NCBI RefSeq assembly: GCF_963676275.1
Contig: NZ_OY781091.1
Location: forward strand, 3,946,775-4,010,774
Source: an uncultured Cohaesibacter sp.
GTDB lineage: Bacteria; Pseudomonadota; Alphaproteobacteria; Rhizobiales; Cohaesibacteraceae
DNA: 64,000 nt
Reading direction: 5' to 3'
This document shows, in pieces, positions 27,359 through 36,802 of the stretch; the first letter of the stretch is position 1, and each line of letters opens with the position of its first letter. Made by a program: the position numbers and the translations under genes. The notes under the pieces are model-generated. The model ran no database searches and was not told where the DNA came from. It was given only the letters and a program-made list of their open reading frames with translations.

Positions 27359-27844
27359 CTTTCAAGCCGCATGCTGCATCGAAAAACCGGCATTCCTTGC
27401 GGCATGAAGCCTTGCAACGGCTGCAAACCCGGCGCGCATCGCAACGCAACATGACAATCAGCAATCATTTCGCAAACGCAGCATCAAGCTTCAACAATTA
27501 GACTTTCTTCCAAATAAAACTAAAGTAAAATTCCAACCCAAAACTAAGGTTACAATCTAACAATCCAGTATAAATCCATTATACACATCAAGCGACTAAA
27601 GGATAAAGGAATTATACGAAACATTAATTGAATTAACTCACGCTCTCATTTTAGATCGCACCAAGGATAGATGCCTTTATTCAGGCCATCTGTGTCTTGA
27701 AAACTCACATGGTCTTGTAAAAAGCCGGAATAAGAATGTCGCGGTGCAGCTGAGGAACAGCATCAAAAAAGACATAACCGTCCAAAACAGACCTATCAGA
27801 ATGGAACATGAGCCGCCGAGCGGTTCAGCACCATGGGGGGAAAT
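27359..27844. other. Intergenic region with AT-rich promoter DNA for the symporter operon
   Basis: About 486 bases between divergent rluA and the DUF4212 gene. The stretch 27480-27660 is markedly AT-rich compared with its surroundings, as expected for a regulated promoter. It contains a 13-base palindrome TTAATTGAATTAA at 27624-27636. I see no gene; a minus-strand frame at 27677-27871 has no family resemblance. Confidence 0.5.
27624..27636. promoter_or_regulatory. AT-rich palindrome upstream of the symporter operon
   Basis: TTAATT-G-AATTAA is a perfect palindrome about 210 bases ahead of the DUF4212 start. It may be a binding site for the operon's regulator, but AT-rich palindromes of this size also arise by chance. 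Confidence 0.25.
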
Positions 27845-28105
27845 ATGACCGAGAATAATGAATCCGGACATGCCTACTGGAAAGCCAACCTGAATCTGAT
27901 TGCGATCTGCCTCGTCGTGTGGTTCATCGCCTCCTTCGGATTTGGCCTGCTTCTTCGCCCTGCCCTCTCCGGAATTGCCGTCGGTGGATCCGACCTTGGC
28001 TTCTGGTTTGCCCAGCAGGGATCAATCTGGGTCTTCTTGGGACTCATCTTCTTCTATGCGGTTCGCATGAATGCGATCGACAAGAAATTCGGCGTCGAAG
28101 AATAA
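27845..28105 (+). CDS. DUF4212 small subunit of a Na+/solute symporter
   Basis: 86 residues with two membrane spans (LNLIAICLVVWFIASFGFGLLL and IWVFLGLIFFYAVRMNAIDKKF) and the family-typical start AYWKANLNL. The ATG at 27845 is directly preceded by GGGGGG; the ATG at 27833 lacks a site. DUF4212 proteins are always found just before an SSS-family symporter of the VC_2705 type, here 21 bases downstream, and are thought to be its small subunit. Related systems import acetate or other short carboxylates. Confidence 0.92.
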   Translation: MTENNESGHAYWKANLNLIAICLVVWFIASFGFGLLLRPALSGIAVGGSDLGFWFAQQGSIWVFLGLIFFYAVRMNAIDKKFGVEE

Positions 28106-28126: not shown

Positions 28127-29899
28127 ATGGATCTTCAAACTCTTACCTACATCGTCGTAGGCGCGTCCTTTGCGCTCTACATCGGGATTGCCTTCTGGGC
28201 ACGTGCCGGTTCCACCGGTGAATTCTATGCCGCCGGTCGCGGCGTTCATCCGGTTGCCAACGGCATGGCAACGGCTGCGGACTGGATGTCTGCGGCTTCC
28301 TTCATTTCCATGGCAGGCCTGATTGCCTTCAACGGTTATGGCGCATCGGTATTCCTGATGGGCTGGACCGGCGGCTATGTGCTTCTCGCCATGCTTCTGG
28401 CGCCATATCTGCGTAAATTCGGCAAATTTACCGTGCCGGAATTCATTGGCGACCGCTTCTATTCCTCCACGGCCCGTATCGTCGCCGTGGCCTGCCTGAT
28501 CATCTGCTCGATCACCTATGTTATCGGCCAGATGAAAGGCGTCGGCGTTGCCTTCTCCCGCTTCCTGGAAGTGGATGCCTCCACCGGTCTGCTGATCGGT
28601 ACCGCGATTGTTTTCCTCTATGCGGTTCAGGGCGGCATGAAAGGCATCACCTACACCCAGATCGCCCAGTATATCGTGCTGATCCTGGCCTACACCATCC
28701 CGGCCGTCTTCATCTCGATGGAACTGACCGGCAACTTCCTGCCGCAAATCGGTCTGTTCGCCGACCATGTTTCCGGTACGCCACTTCTGACCAAGCTGGA
28801 TCAGGTGGTCACCGAACTCGGCTTTGGTGAATATACCGCCTTTACCAACAATCCGCTCAACATGTTCATGTATACCATGTCCCTGATGATCGGCACCGCA
28901 GGCCTGCCACATGTCATCATCCGCTTCTTCACCGTGCCGAAGGTTTCCGACGCACGCTGGACGGCGGGCTGGTCTCTGGTCTTTATCGCGATCCTCTACA
29001 CCACCGCTCCCGGCGTTGGCGCAATGGCTCGCCTCAACCTGATGGACACCATCCAGACCGGCACCATCGGCGCCGAAGATGGCAACCTTCAGTATGAAAG
29101 CCGTCCGGATTGGTTCAAAAACTGGGAAACCACCGGTCTGCTGAAATTCGAAGACAAGAATGGTGACGGCCGCATCCAGTATTACAATGATGCTTCCGAA
29201 AGCTTCAAGGCAAAGGCAGAAGAGTTTGGCTGGAAAGGCAACGAACTGGACGTCGACCGCGACATCATGGTTCTGGCCAACCCGGAAATCGCCAAACTGC
29301 CAAACTGGGTGATTGCTCTGGTTGCTGCCGGTGGTCTCGCCGCCGCGCTCTCCACCGCAGCAGGTCTCCTGATGGCCATTTCCTCAGCCGTCTCTCATGA
29401 CCTGATGAAAAGCACCTTCACCCCCAACATCTCCGAGAAGCAGGAATTGCTCTGGGCACGTATCTCCATGGCAGTGGCCATCGTGATTGCCGCCTATCTC
29501 GGTCTCAATCCTCCGGGCTTTGCCGCTCAGGTTGTTGCTCTGGCCTTCGGTCTGGCAGCCTCCTCGATCTTCCCGGCTCTGATGATGGGTATTTTCTCCA
29601 AACGCGTAAACTCCAAGGGCGCGATCCTTGGCATGCTTGCCGGTATCCTGTCGACCCTGCTCTACATCTTCATGTATAAGGGCTGGTTCTTCATCCCCGG
29701 CACCAACATGCTGGAAAATACCACGGCCAATCATTTCCTGGGCATCGCTCCAGAAGCCTTCGGCACGATTGGTGCGATCATCAACTTCGCAGTTGCCTAT
29801 ATCGTATCGTCCATGTCCGCCGAACCTCCGAAGGAGATTCAGGAACTGGTCGAAAGCATCCGTATCCCGAAAGGGGCCGGCGCTGCGGTTGATCACTAG
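28127..29899 (+). CDS. Na+/solute symporter, SSS family (VC_2705 type)
   Basis: 590 residues with about 13 membrane spans. The start DLQTLTYIVVGASFALYIGIAFWARAG, AAGRGVHPVANGMATAADWMSAASFIS and SISSAVSHDL-type late segment mark the ActP-like branch of the solute:sodium symporter family. A soluble loop near residues 315-400 carries an EF-hand-like stretch DKNGDGRIQYYN. The substrate is probably a short-chain organic acid, judged from relatives, but cannot be read from the sequence. A GGAGCAGGA ribosome site lies just upstream. A strong terminator follows 62 bases after the stop. Confidence 0.92.
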   Translation: MDLQTLTYIVVGASFALYIGIAFWARAGSTGEFYAAGRGVHPVANGMATAADWMSAASFISMAGLIAFNGYGASVFLMGWTGGYVLLAMLLAPYLRKFGKFTVPEFIGDRFYSSTARIVAVACLIICSITYVIGQMKGVGVAFSRFLEVDASTGLLIGTAIVFLYAVQGGMKGITYTQIAQYIVLILAYTIPAVFISMELTGNFLPQIGLFADHVSGTPLLTKLDQVVTELGFGEYTAFTNNPLNMFMYTMSLMIGTAGLPHVIIRFFTVPKVSDARWTAGWSLVFIAILYTTAPGVGAMARLNLMDTIQTGTIGAEDGNLQYESRPDWFKNWETTGLLKFEDKNGDGRIQYYNDASESFKAKAEEFGWKGNELDVDRDIMVLANPEIAKLPNWVIALVAAGGLAAALSTAAGLLMAISSAVSHDLMKSTFTPNISEKQELLWARISMAVAIVIAAYLGLNPPGFAAQVVALAFGLAASSIFPALMMGIFSKRVNSKGAILGMLAGILSTLLYIFMYKGWFFIPGTNMLENTTANHFLGIAPEAFGTIGAIINFAVAYIVSSMSAEPPKEIQELVESIRIPKGAGAAVDH

Positions 29900-30058: not shown

Positions 30059-31900
30059 ATGAGCATGTCCGATTTCGCAGATTTTGCCAGCCACAGACAT
30101 CCCTTTGATCTGCTGGAAATGAACAGCCTTCACGATCTTTCGGCAAAAACCCTCAAGATCGAGGTCACCAAGGGCGACAGGATCCTGTCCGTTGGTCAGG
30201 AGGTGGATGGATTATATCTCATCCAGTCCGGCGAAGTGGATCTCATCACCCCTGAAGATACGTTGCTGCTGCATCTCACGGTCGGAAACTGCTTTGGCGA
30301 ACGGGCAATCTTGGGCGACGGCCACGCCCCAAACATGGCGATAGCCAATCAGGACTGCACCCTCTTCCTCATCCCGAAAGAAGATTTTCTGCAACTGACT
30401 GCAAAAATCCCTTCCTTTCACGCCTTTTTCGACAGCTCCCTGACCAAGCGCAACGCCCAGACAGGCCCGACCGATTCGACCACCGATCTGATATCGATCA
30501 CCATCGGCGAGCTGATGACCCCCGATCCGATCACCATTGCCCCGGACACCACGGCCACCGAAGCGGCCAAGCTGATGCAGAAGAAGAATATCTCCTGCCT
30601 GCTGATCACCGAACAGGACCGCCTGATCGGCATTCTCACCTCCGGAGACATGGCCCACCGGATCGTCGCAGCCGGACGCAGCCTTGAAACGCCGGTTCGT
30701 TCGATCATGACACCGGACCCCTTTGCACTCAGCCCTGATGCGCTTGGCTTCGATGCCCTGCTGTCGATGATGGAACATATGCATACCCATCTGCCCGTGG
30801 TCGAGAATGACCGGCTGGTGGGCATTCTGACCAACACCAATCTGGTTCACAGGCAAGCGGTTTCGGCCCCCTTCCTGATTCGCGATCTGCAACGGCAGGA
30901 GGATTTCGAAAGCCTCGCCGCGATTGTTGCCAAGGTGCCGCAAATGCTGGCTCAGCTCGTCGGTTCCGGCGTCGATGCCCACAATATCGGCCGCATCGTG
31001 ACCAATGTCACCGACAGCCTGACCCGACGTCTGGTGCATCTGGCCGAGGAGAAATTCGGCCCCGCGCCCATTCCCTATCTCTGGCTGGCCTGCGGCTCGC
31101 AAGGCAGGCAGGAGCAGACCGGCATCTCCGATCAGGACAATTGCCTCATCCTCGACGAGCGCTACAGCGAAGCCGAGCATGGCGGTTATTTCGAGCAATT
31201 TGCGAAATTCGTCTCCGATGGCCTCGATGCTGCGGGCTTCTATTATTGCCCCGGCGACATGATGGCCACCAATCCGCGCTGGCGGCAGCCGGTTTCGGTC
31301 TGGCGGCGCTATTTCGACAGTTGGATCGACAGGCCCGACCCGATGGCCCAGATGCTGGCCAGCGTCATGTTTGATCTGCGACCGATCATCGGCGAGAAAA
31401 ATCTCTTTGCCGGCATGTATCTCGAGACCATGGAAAAGGCGAAGAAAAACAGCATTTTCCGCGCACACATGATCTCCAACTCGCTCAGTCACCCCCCCCC
31501 GCTCAGCTTCTTCCGCGGCTTCGCCCTGATCAAGAAGGGCGAACACAAGGATACGGTTGATCTCAAGCTCAATGGCGTTGTCCCCATTGTCGATCTTGCC
31601 CGCGCCTATGCCCTGCAAGGCGCCATTACCGCCGCCAACACCCGCGAACGCCTGATGCAGGCAAGAGACCGCGGCACCATCAGCCGGTCCGGAGCGCAGG
31701 ATCTTATTGACGCCTATGAGCTGATCACCACCATGCGGCTGGAACATCAGGCCCGGCAAATCCGCGAAGGTGGCAAGCCGGACAATTTCCTCGCGCCGGG
31801 AGGCTTGAGCGAGCTGGAGCGCAATCATCTCAAGGATGCCTTCATCATGATCAAGTCGCAGCAGTCCGCCCTTGGTCACGCGCAGGGGATCAATATCTAG
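30059..31900 (+). CDS. cNMP-binding, CBS-pair and GlnD-like nucleotidyltransferase (DUF294) protein
   Basis: 613 residues. Residues about 15-125 form a cyclic-nucleotide-binding domain (VDGLYLIQSGEVDLI, GNCFGERAILGDG). Residues about 150-275 hold a CBS pair (LMTPDPITIAPDTTATEAAKLM and IMTPDPFALSPDAL). Then come the DUF294 nucleotidyltransferase region with GSQGRQEQTGISDQDNCLI, whose GS and DxD residues match active nucleotidyltransferases, and a C-terminal helical DUF294_C domain. Its family is regularly encoded beside DUF4212/SSS symporters, so it may set symporter activity by nucleotide binding or by modifying a partner. The target is unknown. A GGAGA site precedes the ATG. Confidence 0.9.
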   Translation: MSMSDFADFASHRHPFDLLEMNSLHDLSAKTLKIEVTKGDRILSVGQEVDGLYLIQSGEVDLITPEDTLLLHLTVGNCFGERAILGDGHAPNMAIANQDCTLFLIPKEDFLQLTAKIPSFHAFFDSSLTKRNAQTGPTDSTTDLISITIGELMTPDPITIAPDTTATEAAKLMQKKNISCLLITEQDRLIGILTSGDMAHRIVAAGRSLETPVRSIMTPDPFALSPDALGFDALLSMMEHMHTHLPVVENDRLVGILTNTNLVHRQAVSAPFLIRDLQRQEDFESLAAIVAKVPQMLAQLVGSGVDAHNIGRIVTNVTDSLTRRLVHLAEEKFGPAPIPYLWLACGSQGRQEQTGISDQDNCLILDERYSEAEHGGYFEQFAKFVSDGLDAAGFYYCPGDMMATNPRWRQPVSVWRRYFDSWIDRPDPMAQMLASVMFDLRPIIGEKNLFAGMYLETMEKAKKNSIFRAHMISNSLSHPPPLSFFRGFALIKKGEHKDTVDLKLNGVVPIVDLARAYALQGAITAANTRERLMQARDRGTISRSGAQDLIDAYELITTMRLEHQARQIREGGKPDNFLAPGGLSELERNHLKDAFIMIKSQQSALGHAQGINI

Positions 31901-32053: not shown

Positions 32054-32575
32054 ATGCTGTTTGTCTTGCTTGGAACCATTATCGCCGGTGTGGGCGCCGG
32101 TGGCGTCGCGGTCATCTTCTACAAATATATCCTGCGCCGCCCCCGCCCCAAGGGAGCCATCCCGATCGCGGCTGGCCTAGCCATGATCGCCATGCAGATC
32201 ATACTGGATTATGGCTGGTATCGGCGCGCAACGGCAGATTTCGGTGCCGATGTGGTGGTGCTGCAAACAGCCGAGGGCAAAAGCCCCCTGCAGCCGCTCT
32301 CCTATATCATCCCGCGCACCGATCGTTTTCTGGCTCTGAACAAGACAACCATGCGCAGCAATGACACTCTACCCGGCATCAAGCTGGCAGAAGTCTTTCA
32401 GGTCCAGAAAGACGGTCCAACCAGCACCATCCTGCAACTGATCGATTGCCCGGGCAAGCGCCGTGCCGACTGGAGCGGCTCCGCAGCGCCTTCCCCGGAC
32501 GATCTCAACGACAAGGCAAAATGGTTTGACCTCACGGCAGATGATCCCCTTCTTGCCGCCGCCTGCGAAAGCTAG
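32054..32575 (+). CDS. Unknown small membrane-anchored protein
   Basis: 173 residues that I do not recognise. Two N-terminal hydrophobic spans (LFVLLGTIIAGVGAGGVAVIFY and GAIPIAAGLAMIAMQIILD) are separated by a basic RRPRPK turn. They are followed by about 110 soluble residues with a YIIPRTDRFLALNKTT stretch and a single DCPGKRRADW segment. A GAGGAG site stands ahead of the ATG. It lies between the cNMP/CBS gene and the receiver gene on the same strand, so it is probably part of the same module, with its soluble domain likely outside the cytoplasm. Confidence 0.75.
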   Translation: MLFVLLGTIIAGVGAGGVAVIFYKYILRRPRPKGAIPIAAGLAMIAMQIILDYGWYRRATADFGADVVVLQTAEGKSPLQPLSYIIPRTDRFLALNKTTMRSNDTLPGIKLAEVFQVQKDGPTSTILQLIDCPGKRRADWSGSAAPSPDDLNDKAKWFDLTADDPLLAAACES

Positions 32576-32635: not shown

Positions 32636-33022
32636 ATGACAAAGTCCATTCTGGTCGTGGATGACGAAGCATCCATCACCTTTGCTCTGGAACAGCTCAT
32701 GAAGGCGGAAGGCTATAGCGTACAAACCGCAAGCAGCGGCCAGCAAGCACTTGCGCTCAACCTTGAAAAGCATCCGGACCTGATCCTGCTGGACACATCC
32801 CTGCCTGATCGCGATGGCTATGACATCTGCCAGACCATCCGCAAGGACGCCGCCTGCGAGCATGTAAAAATCATCATGATGAATGCCTCAAGCCGCCAGA
32901 TTGAGCTGGAAAAGGGACTGGCCTGCGGTGCCAACAGTGCGCTGACCAAACCCTTCTCGCTGGGATCCGTCATGCAGACCGTCAAGGCACTGCTCGCACA
33001 ACAAACGCATGACAAGACCTAG
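32636..33022 (+). CDS. Single-domain response regulator
   Basis: 128 residues, a receiver domain only. The acidic pair (VVDDE), the phospho-acceptor Asp (LILLDTSLPDRDG, near residue 53) and the Lys (ALTKPF) are present; the conserved Thr/Ser position reads MMNAS. There is no output domain. Its last 14 bases overlap the next gene, a sensor-like protein fused to an exonuclease, so the two are translationally coupled and likely partners. Confidence 0.92.
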   Translation: MTKSILVVDDEASITFALEQLMKAEGYSVQTASSGQQALALNLEKHPDLILLDTSLPDRDGYDICQTIRKDAACEHVKIIMMNASSRQIELEKGLACGANSALTKPFSLGSVMQTVKALLAQQTHDKT

Positions 33023-35204
33023 AGACAGGAAACAAGCGCGAGCCATGACACAACAGGCCAACAGACTCGAACATTTAAGCCTCAGGCTTCGCATCTTCCT
33101 GTTTTTCGCGCTGATCGGTGCCTGCACCGTCATCATCGTGATCGCCAGCCTCTTTTTTGCCGAACAACGCATCGGGCCGGAAGCCACTCCCCATCTGGTG
33201 CTGTTCGGCGGCATCGCCATTTTCGGCATTCTGTTTGTGACCGGTTGGGTCTGGCAGAAATTCGACATCAATGTCGCCCAGCCGATCGAACATTTTTCCA
33301 AGACCATCCGTTCCCTCGTTCATGCCGGCGCGTCGCGCGAACTGGACGAGGAAACAGGTAAATATCTCGGCCTTCTCAAACCCGCCATCGAAGAGATAAC
33401 CGCCGCCCTGCTTGAAGCCCGCAAGGAAACTGACAGGCGCATTGCCGAGGCCACCGCCGAGACCCACAAGCAGACAGCGCGTCTTGAAAGCGTCATCCGC
33501 AATCTCGATCAGGGCATTCTGATCTGCACCCGCGACAACAAGATCATGCTCTACAACAAGCGGGCGCTCAGGATCCTGCATGTTTCGGGCGAGCTTGGGC
33601 TGAGGCGTTCGCTTTTCTCGGTCGTCTCAGCCGCCCCCTTCCGCCACGCGCTGGAGCGGCTGGGCCACAGGCTGGAAGAAGGCCGACACAAGCGCCACAA
33701 GGAAGGCCTCAGCCAGCTTGTCATCTGCGCCACCGCCGATGGCAAACACACGTTGCAGGGCCGCGTCACCCTGCTGCTCGATGAGGCAGAAAAGGAACCT
33801 TCCGGCTTCATTGTGACCTTCGACGACATGACCCGCCAGTTGGCCGACAATGTGGAGCGCGATGCCCTGCTGCAAAATGCCCTGATCGATCTGCGCCATC
33901 CGGCAGCCAATCTTCTGGCCACGGCCCAGATGCTGGCCGGAGACTTTGCGCTCACCGCCGATGCCAAACGTTCCCTTGAGAGCATGATCGCCGAGGAGGC
34001 TGGAAAACTGGCCGAGCGTCTCGAACATTATGACGGGCAATCCCACCATATGCTGACCAGCGCATGGCCCATGAGCGATGTCTATTCCTCCTCCCTGTTC
34101 AATTCGATCCTGAGGCGGAACAGTTCCGAAAACCAGAAGGTCAGCTGTGAATTTGTCGGTGACCCGGTCTGGCTGCATTGCGATTCCATCACCATTGTCG
34201 AATTGATGGAATATGCCATGCGCAAGGTCGCAGAAGCGACCGGTGAGCGCGCCTTGCAGTTAAGGGCAACCCAGAGCGAGAAGAATATCTATATCGACCT
34301 TCACTGGCATGGATCGCCTCTGGCCGTTTCCACCATCCATGGCTGGCTGGATGATCCGCTTGATCCGGATCTGGGCAGCATCACCAGCCGCGATGTCCTG
34401 CAGCGCCACAAATCCGATTTCTGGAGCGCCGGGGCCGCCGATGGCACCGCCTATCTGCGCCTGCCGCTCTCGCTGCCCCATGACCATCACAGCAATCAGC
34501 GCCTCGATGAAGAAGCCCTTCTGCTGCCGGACCGTCTAGAATTTTACGATTTCGACCTGATGGAGCGCAACTATCTCGGCACATTGGAAGATCGCCCCTT
34601 GCGGGAGCTGGATTTTGTCGTCTTCGACACCGAGACCACCGGCCTTGATCCCTCCGGCGGCGATGAAATCATATCGATTGCAGGAGTGCGCATCGTCAAT
34701 GGCCGTATCATGCATGGCGAAATCTTCGACCAATATGTCAATCCGGGCCGCTCGATTCCTCCGGCCTCGACAAAAATCCACCATATCACCAACGAGATGG
34801 TCGCCGGAGCCCCGCCCATAACCACCATTCTGCCCCGCTTTCATGCCTTTGTAAGCGATGCCGTTCTGGTCGCCCACAATGCTGCATTCGACATGAAATT
34901 CCTCGCCCTGCAGCAGGAAAAAACCTCGATCCGCTTTACCAATCCGGTGCTCGATACCGTGCTTCTGGCCGCCCATTTGCAGGGCCAGACCAGCAGCCTG
35001 ACACTGGATGCACTGGCCGAACAGTTCGGCATAGAGATCCCCGCCGAGATGCGCCATACCGCGCTGGGCGATTCGCTGGCAACAGCGGAAGTCCTGCTCC
35101 GCCTGATCGATCTTCTGGAAGCATCCGGCATCAAGACCTTGCATGATGCCGTGGAAGCGGAGAAAAAGGCCGAAGCGATCCGTCGTCAGCAGGCCCGCTA
35201 TTAA
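33009..35204 (+). CDS. Membrane PAS/histidine-kinase-like protein fused to a DEDDh (DnaQ-type) exonuclease
   Basis: 731 residues. Two membrane spans (about 26-50 and 62-83) lead to a HAMP-like and coiled-coil linker (to about 155) and a PAS domain (LESVIRNLDQGILICTRDN). A DHp-like helix follows (LIDLRHPAANLLATAQML, near residue 297). The ATPase-like region to about 510 lacks the N box and the DxGxG box, so kinase activity is doubtful. Residues about 534-705 are a complete exonuclease: FDTETTGLDP (Asp and Glu), HNAAFDMKFL (Asp) and HTALGDSLATAEVLL (His and Asp). Exonuclease genes are known next to DUF4212/SSS clusters, but sensor and nuclease in one chain stands out. The start may instead be the ATG at 33045. 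Confidence 0.88.
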   Translation: MTRPRDRKQARAMTQQANRLEHLSLRLRIFLFFALIGACTVIIVIASLFFAEQRIGPEATPHLVLFGGIAIFGILFVTGWVWQKFDINVAQPIEHFSKTIRSLVHAGASRELDEETGKYLGLLKPAIEEITAALLEARKETDRRIAEATAETHKQTARLESVIRNLDQGILICTRDNKIMLYNKRALRILHVSGELGLRRSLFSVVSAAPFRHALERLGHRLEEGRHKRHKEGLSQLVICATADGKHTLQGRVTLLLDEAEKEPSGFIVTFDDMTRQLADNVERDALLQNALIDLRHPAANLLATAQMLAGDFALTADAKRSLESMIAEEAGKLAERLEHYDGQSHHMLTSAWPMSDVYSSSLFNSILRRNSSENQKVSCEFVGDPVWLHCDSITIVELMEYAMRKVAEATGERALQLRATQSEKNIYIDLHWHGSPLAVSTIHGWLDDPLDPDLGSITSRDVLQRHKSDFWSAGAADGTAYLRLPLSLPHDHHSNQRLDEEALLLPDRLEFYDFDLMERNYLGTLEDRPLRELDFVVFDTETTGLDPSGGDEIISIAGVRIVNGRIMHGEIFDQYVNPGRSIPPASTKIHHITNEMVAGAPPITTILPRFHAFVSDAVLVAHNAAFDMKFLALQQEKTSIRFTNPVLDTVLLAAHLQGQTSSLTLDALAEQFGIEIPAEMRHTALGDSLATAEVLLRLIDLLEASGIKTLHDAVEAEKKAEAIRRQQARY

Positions 35205-35317: not shown

Positions 35318-36802
35318 ATGACCGTCAGCATTGATCTGGGGACCATGAAACTGGGCCAACCGGCCCAAATGGATCTGGAAGAGCTGCTGGCAACGCGTCT
35401 TCTGGTGCAGGGAAACTCCGGCTCGGGCAAATCCCATCTGTTGCGCCGCATCCTCGAGCAGAGCGCCAAATGGGTGCAGCAGATCATCATCGACCCAGAG
35501 GGAGACTTCGTCACGTTGGCCGAGAAATATGGCCATGCGGTGGTCGATGCGGTCGGCACCGAGGCTGACCTGACAATGATCGCCGCCCGTGTACGCCAGC
35601 ATCGCATCTCCGCCGTGCTCAATCTGGAAGGGCTGGACGCCGACCGCCAGATGCGCGCCGCCGCCGCCTTTCTCAATGGCCTGTTCGATATCGACCGGCA
35701 ATATTGGTATCCGGCGATTGTCATTGTCGATGAGGCCCAGCTCTTTGCCCCTGCTGCCGGTGGCGAGGTAAGCGAGGAGGCTCGCCGCTCCTCCCTTGGT
35801 GCCATGACAAATCTCATGTGCCGTGGCCGAAAGCGCGGTCTGGCTGGCATCATCGCCACCCAGCGTCTTGCCAAGCTGGCCAAGAACGTGGCCGCCGAAG
35901 CCTCCAACTTCCTGATGGGCCGGACCTTTCTTGATATCGACATGGCCCGCGCCGCCGACCTGCTCGGCCTTGAGCGCCGTCAGGCGGAAACCTTCCGCAA
36001 TCTCGATCGCGGCCAGTTTGTCGCCCTCGGCCCGGCCCTTTATCGCCGCTCGGAAACCGTCACCATTGGCGCAGTGGAAACCTCGGCCCGCTCATCAAGC
36101 CCCAAGCTGGTGCCGCTGCCGGATGTCCAGCGCGACAATATCGACGAATTGCTGTTCAAACCGGGCTCGGACGACGATCCCCGGCCCGCGATGGCCCCGC
36201 CGCCTCCCACCACGGCAGAAATCATGCAGCAGCTAGCCAATCTGAAGCTCGACAGGGACTTTGGCGGCGAGACGGAGCCACAGCTTGACCTCGACCCCGG
36301 CCTCAGCGCCGAGGAACGCGAAGAGATCCTGCACAAGATTCTCACCGATCTGCTGGATGATCCCGATGCCGCCTATCAGCCGGTGTCGGTGCTTTATCAG
36401 GATTTCCAGGTCCGCTGCCGTATCGAGAAAACCCTCAAGATCACACCTGACTTGCAGGAATTCCGCCAGCTTTTGGCCGTCGCCCGGGCGGGCGTTGATG
36501 CCAAGGAAGAAACGCTGGATGAGGATCAGTGGAAACAGGCAGGCATCATTGCCGACCAGTTGCCCGAAGACATGCGCGGCGTCTATCTGCTGCTCGCCAA
36601 GGCTGCCCTTGGCAACAAGCCCTGCCCGACCAATCTGGAACTGGCCACCGCCTACGGCACCCGCTCGCCCTCCCGCGCCCGCTTCCTGCTGACCTATATG
36701 GAAGAGCGCGGCTATCTGGTCTGCGCCAACGACCTGCGCGGCAATCGCATTGTCACGTTAAAGGATCTGGGCGTCCAGACCGAACCGGGCCATCCCGACT
36801 GA
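35318..36802 (+). CDS. HerA-like ATPase (DUF87)
   Basis: 494 residues. A HerA/FtsK-type P-loop (LVQGNSGSGKSHLLRR, Walker A near residue 35), IIIDPEGDFVTLAEKYG, Walker B with VIVDEAQLFAP and the sensor-like RKRGLAGIIATQRLAKL are plain. The C-terminal 200 residues are less conserved, with a helical region and a winged-helix-like end (LELATAYGTRSPSRARFLLTYMEERGYL). Such proteins are hexameric DNA translocases in archaea with NurA nuclease; the role of the stand-alone bacterial type is not settled. It follows the exonuclease fusion by 113 bases on the same strand. Confidence 0.87.
   Translation: MTVSIDLGTMKLGQPAQMDLEELLATRLLVQGNSGSGKSHLLRRILEQSAKWVQQIIIDPEGDFVTLAEKYGHAVVDAVGTEADLTMIAARVRQHRISAVLNLEGLDADRQMRAAAAFLNGLFDIDRQYWYPAIVIVDEAQLFAPAAGGEVSEEARRSSLGAMTNLMCRGRKRGLAGIIATQRLAKLAKNVAAEASNFLMGRTFLDIDMARAADLLGLERRQAETFRNLDRGQFVALGPALYRRSETVTIGAVETSARSSSPKLVPLPDVQRDNIDELLFKPGSDDDPRPAMAPPPPTTAEIMQQLANLKLDRDFGGETEPQLDLDPGLSAEEREEILHKILTDLLDDPDAAYQPVSVLYQDFQVRCRIEKTLKITPDLQEFRQLLAVARAGVDAKEETLDEDQWKQAGIIADQLPEDMRGVYLLLAKAALGNKPCPTNLELATAYGTRSPSRARFLLTYMEERGYLVCANDLRGNRIVTLKDLGVQTEPGHPD

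Follow-up and report, generated by a model that had tools for sequence, protein, structure and literature searches.

Two-component systems are mostly known to act on transcription or second messengers, and a sensor-like membrane protein that ends in a nuclease raises the question of what such a chain responds to and what it does with nucleic acid. Here we analyse a stretch of 64,000 nucleotides from an uncultured Cohaesibacter sp. (the window), part of one contig of 5.03 Mb, in which a single open reading frame carries a membrane anchor, a PAS domain, a degenerate histidine kinase core and a DEDDh exonuclease. We propose, with a probability of roughly one half, that this fusion is the output end of a three-part chain running from a kinase through a receiver to a DivL-like pseudokinase-exonuclease, and that the chain is tied to carboxylate uptake. 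The genes concerned, and the domains of the fusion, lie in the window as follows.

27833..28105, + strand: small symporter subunit (DUF4212 / TIGR03647)
28127..29899, + strand: VC_2705-family sodium/solute symporter (TIGR03648, 846 bits)
30059..31900, + strand: one protein with cNMP-binding, two CBS and DUF294 nucleotidyltransferase domains
32054..32575, + strand: 173-aa protein with no Pfam match, which some family members have in the same position
32636..33022, + strand: single-domain receiver, 128 aa, with D9, D10, D53 and K105 present and Asn83 at the usual Thr/Ser position
33009..35204, + strand: membrane-anchored PAS-pseudokinase-DEDDh exonuclease, 731 aa
33081..33248, + strand: two predicted membrane helices of the fusion (about residues 25-47 and 60-80), connected by a short loop, from hydropathy and model helices
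33480..33830, + strand: PAS domain, residues 158-274
33831..34061, + strand: pseudo-DHp, residues 275-351
34065..34478, + strand: pseudo-CA domain, residues 353-490
34614..35120, + strand: DEDDh 3'-5' exonuclease domain, residues 536-704

The original prediction placed a sensor and an exonuclease on one chain beginning at 33009, and the open frame there does hold the fusion, but the start codon is probably at 33045, which gives 719 aa. A search for homologues bore out the single chain: 105 loci yielded 102 distinct full-length sequences with the same fusion (long forms, the window's included), in all of which the one chain is kept and the catalytic residues do not vary. Three long-form sequences occur twice, with identical BLAST rows (L006/L092, L047/L060 and L048/L061); the duplicates are removed from the 102 and kept in the counts of 103 and 84 given below. 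The HAMP-like stretch after the second membrane helix has no Pfam match, and the family profile matches VicK and Tsr there. In the PAS domain, C173 is conserved in 98 of the 102 long forms, and the dead kinase core that follows has the DHp and CA fold.

Long forms come mostly from Alpha-, Beta- and Gammaproteobacteria, with others in Magnetococcales, Nitrospirota and one Desulfobulbaceae, and many are from metagenome-assembled genomes. The main locus set consists of the best 80 of at least 586 loci and therefore favours full-length forms, and kinship among the loci means that the family counts cannot be treated as independent. Into the model alignment went 74 of the 79 full-length loci of that set plus the window (L061, L077, L088, L127 and L137 were left out), the Pfam scan 60 loci plus the window, and the DHp-CA alignment 67 loci plus the window. 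An exonuclease match below 1e-50 is present in 32 of 249 sampled Pseudomonadota genomes, the window's included, with an open frame of at least 646 residues in 28 and of 467-482 residues in 4. Near-full-length matches occur in 7 of 289 sampled genomes of the host's class, again including the window's, and the gene is a single frame in 16 of 17 further genomes of the genus. Plasmid records match in 1282 cases, mostly to the exonuclease domain; at least 80% of the query is covered in one place in eight of them.

Several genomes carry additional or altered copies. One (G294, locus L057) has a second, N-terminal half-length copy, a 357-aa frame 68% identical to residues 17-294, with the full-length copy elsewhere. 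In Comamonas denitrificans a second exonuclease protein of 451 aa without a PAS match lies immediately upstream of the full-length fusion (L138 9212-10567). The genomes of L109 and L090 (G365 and G370) each have two strong pseudokinase-profile matches, so two fusion copies are probable there. In the one same-genus genome where the fusion is in pieces (G304; L162 5402-8015), the receiver and DUF294 genes are broken as well and the downstream HerA-like gene is whole, the result of either decay or sequencing errors.

The exonuclease domain is the best-defined part of the chain. The RNase_T profile (PF00929) scores 127 bits on the window protein, at a cut-off of 24, and matches all 61 scanned members. 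All five DEDDh catalytic residues had been pointed out in the window protein, and they are conserved in every long form that reaches them: D540, E542 and D628 in 102 of 102, and H683 and D688 in 101, the exception (L067) being cut by its contig end. The domain is similar to the proofreading exonuclease of PolC and DnaQ, to ExoX and to RNase T, which are replication or RNA-processing enzymes without a membrane sensor. This likeness allows RNA, DNA or short oligonucleotides as the putative substrate.

The kinase core presents the opposite picture. Aligned to an intact kinase core, the phosphoacceptor position falls on Ile293 in the window protein, and across the 102 long forms it is never His and in 58 cases Glu. 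The His originally read as phosphoacceptor in the DHp-like helix is the wrong residue: His297 lies four residues off, is His in 17 of 102 sequences and aligns with the Thr of HELRTPL. At the two N-box Asn positions stand Y402 (Asn in none of 102) and K406 (Asn in 2), and at the G1 Asp position W433 (Trp in 100, Asp in none), while the third of the G2 glycines alone is kept, as G456, in 69. The H-box His, the N-box Asn pair and the G1 Asp of an active HisKA/HATPase_c sensor kinase are thus all absent, and the HisKA profile still scores in 7 of 61 scanned members. The suggestion of a degenerate ATPase, and hence a pseudokinase, is upheld by this family-wide loss of the N-box Asn and G1 Asp residues; judged by its residues, the core is dead throughout the family. 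Other positions are held closely: H467 is invariant (102/102), and R296, W388, W433, G435 and W446 are each conserved in 98-101 of 102 sequences (R296, at H+3, in 98; G435 in 100). The sampled pseudokinases form one clade in a kinase tree (support 100/100); a single loss of kinase function, after which the dead form persisted, is therefore probable.

What would a dead kinase core read? The gene before the fusion had been described as a single receiver domain, and such a receiver, in the window of 128 aa, does end just upstream of the fusion in 84 of 103 testable long-form loci, with a four-base overlap in 16. Among these 84 adjacent receivers D53 is present in 83 and K105 in all, and the Thr/Ser position is Thr in 59, Ser in 15 and Asn in 9, the window's being one with Asn. 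Pfam finds no second domain in the window receiver, which is not a LuxR response regulator of the CrbS/R type, and no second closely similar receiver was found in the host genome, where the next best is 33% identical.

The comparison with proteins that have no pseudokinase is informative. We found 24 such short forms (L018 is classed as short by both BLAST and Pfam) and examined the regions of 18; one of these, L154, was left out because it has about 110 bases upstream before the contig ends. None of the 17 testable loci has an adjacent receiver, as against 84 of 103 for long forms, and pseudokinase and receiver therefore tend to co-occur. In seven genomes (L143-L149) a short form, in which the exonuclease directly follows the sensor part, sits in the same operon slot in the order DUF4212, symporter, DUF294, small protein and exonuclease gene, with no receiver between. 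Two further short forms (L152 and L153) have a kinase and a receiver nearby and no pseudokinase, so the receiver could be acting on something else. Long and short forms are interleaved in the best exonuclease tree, with four changes of long/other label, of which the well-supported branches force one; repeated loss of the pseudokinase is therefore not established. That tree holds 45 of 101 long forms, has long branches among single-domain exonucleases, and was built after the rows L002, L048, L051, L057-L059, L061, L067 and L092 were dropped.

A candidate source of phosphate is encoded close by in many relatives. Among the 48 well-flanked loci (at least 4 kb on both sides), 31 encode an intact histidine kinase of the SLC5 type, about 900 residues long, on the same strand within 1.5 kb of the fusion. 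It stands either ahead of the receiver (the Rhodoferax type) or behind the fusion; at L082 a kinase 1.9 kb upstream fell outside the 1.5 kb limit. Receiver and kinase are both present in 29 of the 48 loci and both missing in 12 (Fisher p 6e-6, kinship ignored). The neighbour kinases that we scanned (L140, L116 and L064) have HisKA and HATPase_c domains and no receiver domain. Their front end is SLC5-like: the SSF match is below cut-off in L140 and above it in the homologous front end of a host-genome protein, 42% identical to that of L140. On a Paracoccus plasmid the genes stand in a row with four-base overlaps: DUF294, hypothetical, SLC5-type kinase, response regulator and exonuclease.

The pseudokinase itself resembles this neighbour. 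Its profile aligns with the neighbour kinase core with an hhalign probability of 99.2 over 203 columns. For ten genomes selected because they contain the neighbour kinase, we compared the pseudokinase with 28-79 candidates per genome, and in all ten the neighbour was the best match outside the fusion itself. In the kinase tree, 16 pseudokinases (of 68) and 14 SLC5 kinases (of 31) stand together opposite 28 other kinases on a branch with support 94/92, below the tree tool's star threshold. Since the pseudokinase is most like the neighbour kinase, one receiver could be recognised by both cores. The pseudokinase had been proposed to sense a ligand and gate the nuclease; the data rather suggest that the receiver is the input it reads, because of the difference in adjacency between long and short forms and because the closest sequence relative of the pseudokinase is an intact kinase next door that could phosphorylate that receiver.

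The 12 well-flanked long forms with neither receiver nor kinase alongside retain the pseudokinase; of their genomes, five have an SLC5 kinase elsewhere (the L129 match ends at 733 of 899), another has a match to the front end alone, and six have no SLC5-kinase match at 1e-60. No SLC5-histidine kinase was found at the window locus, where the SLC5 protein is a plain symporter. Searching the host genome with three queries (the SLC5 kinase, a profile of its core and that of the pseudokinase) gave no convincing partner kinase: a single SLC5-kinase match is good, to a 1190-residue open frame, and it is weak over the kinase part, and the best other match to the pseudokinase is a 447-residue frame at 33.9 bits. 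With no linked kinase in Cohaesibacter and that 1190-residue frame as its best match, the pathway is better supported in relatives than at the window locus.

The separate parts of this arrangement have precedents. DivL feeds back on another kinase; the window protein differs in having an exonuclease attached, and docking of a receiver there is suggested by analogy. With DivL, the Caulobacter pseudokinase that binds DivK~P, it shares a kinase fold without a phosphoacceptor His, a PAS domain in front, an Arg at H+3 and a receiver without an output domain of its own (PMC4211667). R553 of DivL, at the phosphoacceptor position +3, is required for binding DivK~P (PMC4211667), and R296 is its counterpart here, so that the phosphoacceptor is lost and the docking Arg kept in both proteins. 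The CrbS/CrbR (MxtR/ErdR) system likewise combines an SLC5-type kinase with carboxylate-transport neighbours, as do many relatives of the fusion, and its P. putida targets include a CBS-protein gene and an RNase_T-family gene (PMC9927547); Pflu5625 is a similar CBS-nucleotidyltransferase (PMC5715377). CrbR is a LuxR-family transcription factor (PMC9100948), whereas the window system has a single-domain receiver beside a pseudokinase-nuclease and no linked kinase at the locus. P. putida PP_0353, of the RNase_T family, is alike in its Pfam domain, CBS-protein partner and carboxylate phenotype; it differs in that the passages describing it mention no sensor part (PMC9927547). Among the papers listed from the open-licence literature we recognised no description of this pseudokinase-exonuclease fusion, judged by title and abstract opening and with subscription journals outside the scope, and found no biochemical data on the fusion. 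The design is nonetheless assembled from known parts.

The original prediction mentioned neither the kinase nor the transport setting, that is, DUF4212, the VC_2705 symporter and the CBS-DUF294 protein. Yet in 47 of the 48 well-flanked loci at least one of three features lies nearby: an SLC5 kinase, a VC_2705-like symporter, or a BLAST match to the DUF294 protein. The DUF294-protein match is present in 33 of the 48, and the CBS part by itself may account for some of these matches, the query having been the whole 613-aa protein. A Marivivens plasmid has the order acs, DUF4212, symporter, DUF294, hypothetical, response regulator and exonuclease. Several Alphaproteobacteria have the small protein of the window (32054-32575) in the same position, with the DUF294 gene on one side and the receiver or exonuclease gene on the other. 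The targets of MxtR/ErdR (CrbS/R) in P. putida include an RNase_T-family gene that shares an operon with a CBS-protein gene, and loss of the RNase_T-family gene slows the onset of growth on pyruvate; a role in mRNA decay is the speculation of that study's authors (PMC9927547). Together, the setting of the 47 loci, acs in the Marivivens cluster and the P. putida pyruvate phenotype argue for control of small-carboxylate use.

Based on these observations, we infer a chain of phosphotransfer, docking and gating. A sensor kinase, in many relatives the adjacent CrbS-like SLC5-type transporter-kinase, would phosphorylate the single-domain receiver. The receiver would dock on the dead DHp-CA core, which may read its phosphorylation state as DivL reads DivK~P. 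Docking, together with a second input from the fusion's own membrane/HAMP/PAS part, would change the dimer and with it the activity or the access of the DEDDh exonuclease, which would then trim a 3' end, most likely of RNA, in the control of acetate- or pyruvate-like small-carboxylate uptake. More tentatively, we suggest that this is a widespread phosphorelay with a nuclease output, in which an SLC5-type kinase, a free receiver and a related pseudokinase fused to a DEDDh exonuclease switch the trimming of 3' ends at the membrane; carboxylate sensing would then act directly on nucleic acid and not via transcription.

The pseudokinase could instead be a mere structural spacer or dimeriser, with the PAS/membrane part alone controlling the exonuclease and the receiver acting elsewhere. 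The short forms in the same operon slot (L143-L149), the 12 of 48 long forms with neither receiver nor kinase nearby, and the two short forms that retain receiver and kinase without the pseudokinase are all consistent with such a spacer. The invariant H467 and the five nearly invariant residues exceed what a spacer needs, however, and receiver adjacency tracks the pseudokinase; we consider the spacer unlikely. A different division of labour would have the DUF294 nucleotidyltransferase attach nucleotides, at a 3' end or on a protein, that the DEDDh enzyme takes off again, the balance setting transport. The frequency of DUF294-protein matches (33/48) is in keeping with this, as is one natural single-chain fusion of DEDDh exonuclease, CBS-CBS and DUF294/DUF294_C (L030 13-2127, - strand, G178), which joins genes adjacent elsewhere. 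But 15 of 48 loci have no such match nearby, some matches may be to CBS domains alone, and neighbourhood cannot demonstrate a common substrate for the two enzymes, and we hold this pairing of writer and eraser to be rather improbable.

A HerA/DUF87-like ATPase is encoded directly downstream on the same strand (window 35318-36802), and the PADLOC models DEDDh and PDC-S48 match the exonuclease domain, as might be expected if the exonuclease worked with the ATPase in nucleic-acid defence or repair. These matches fall on the widespread DEDDh domain, however, and within the best 80 loci of the main set a HerA match occurs, in the flanks covered, at the two Cohaesibacter loci alone, joined beyond that set by the same-genus L162. 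HerA was thus seen as a neighbour in loci of this genus alone, and a HerA partnership was rejected as a general feature, which makes a defence or repair module very improbable. Nor does the fusion appear to be two unrelated genes joined by a frameshift, an assembly error or gene decay: the broken copy in G304 would suit that explanation, but 102 distinct single-chain sequences with unvarying catalytic residues, and intact genes in 16 of 17 other genomes of the genus, reduce its likelihood to almost nothing.

If the proposed chain of kinase, receiver and pseudokinase-exonuclease is correct, nucleic-acid degradation would join the direct outputs of two-component systems. The fusion would be another example, after DivL, of a kinase core turned into a reader, in this case with an enzyme attached, and it would suggest a possible origin for the unexplained pyruvate phenotype of the P. 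putida nuclease gene. With matches in 32 of the 249 Pseudomonadota genomes sampled, the subfamily occurs often enough to be studied in cultured strains.
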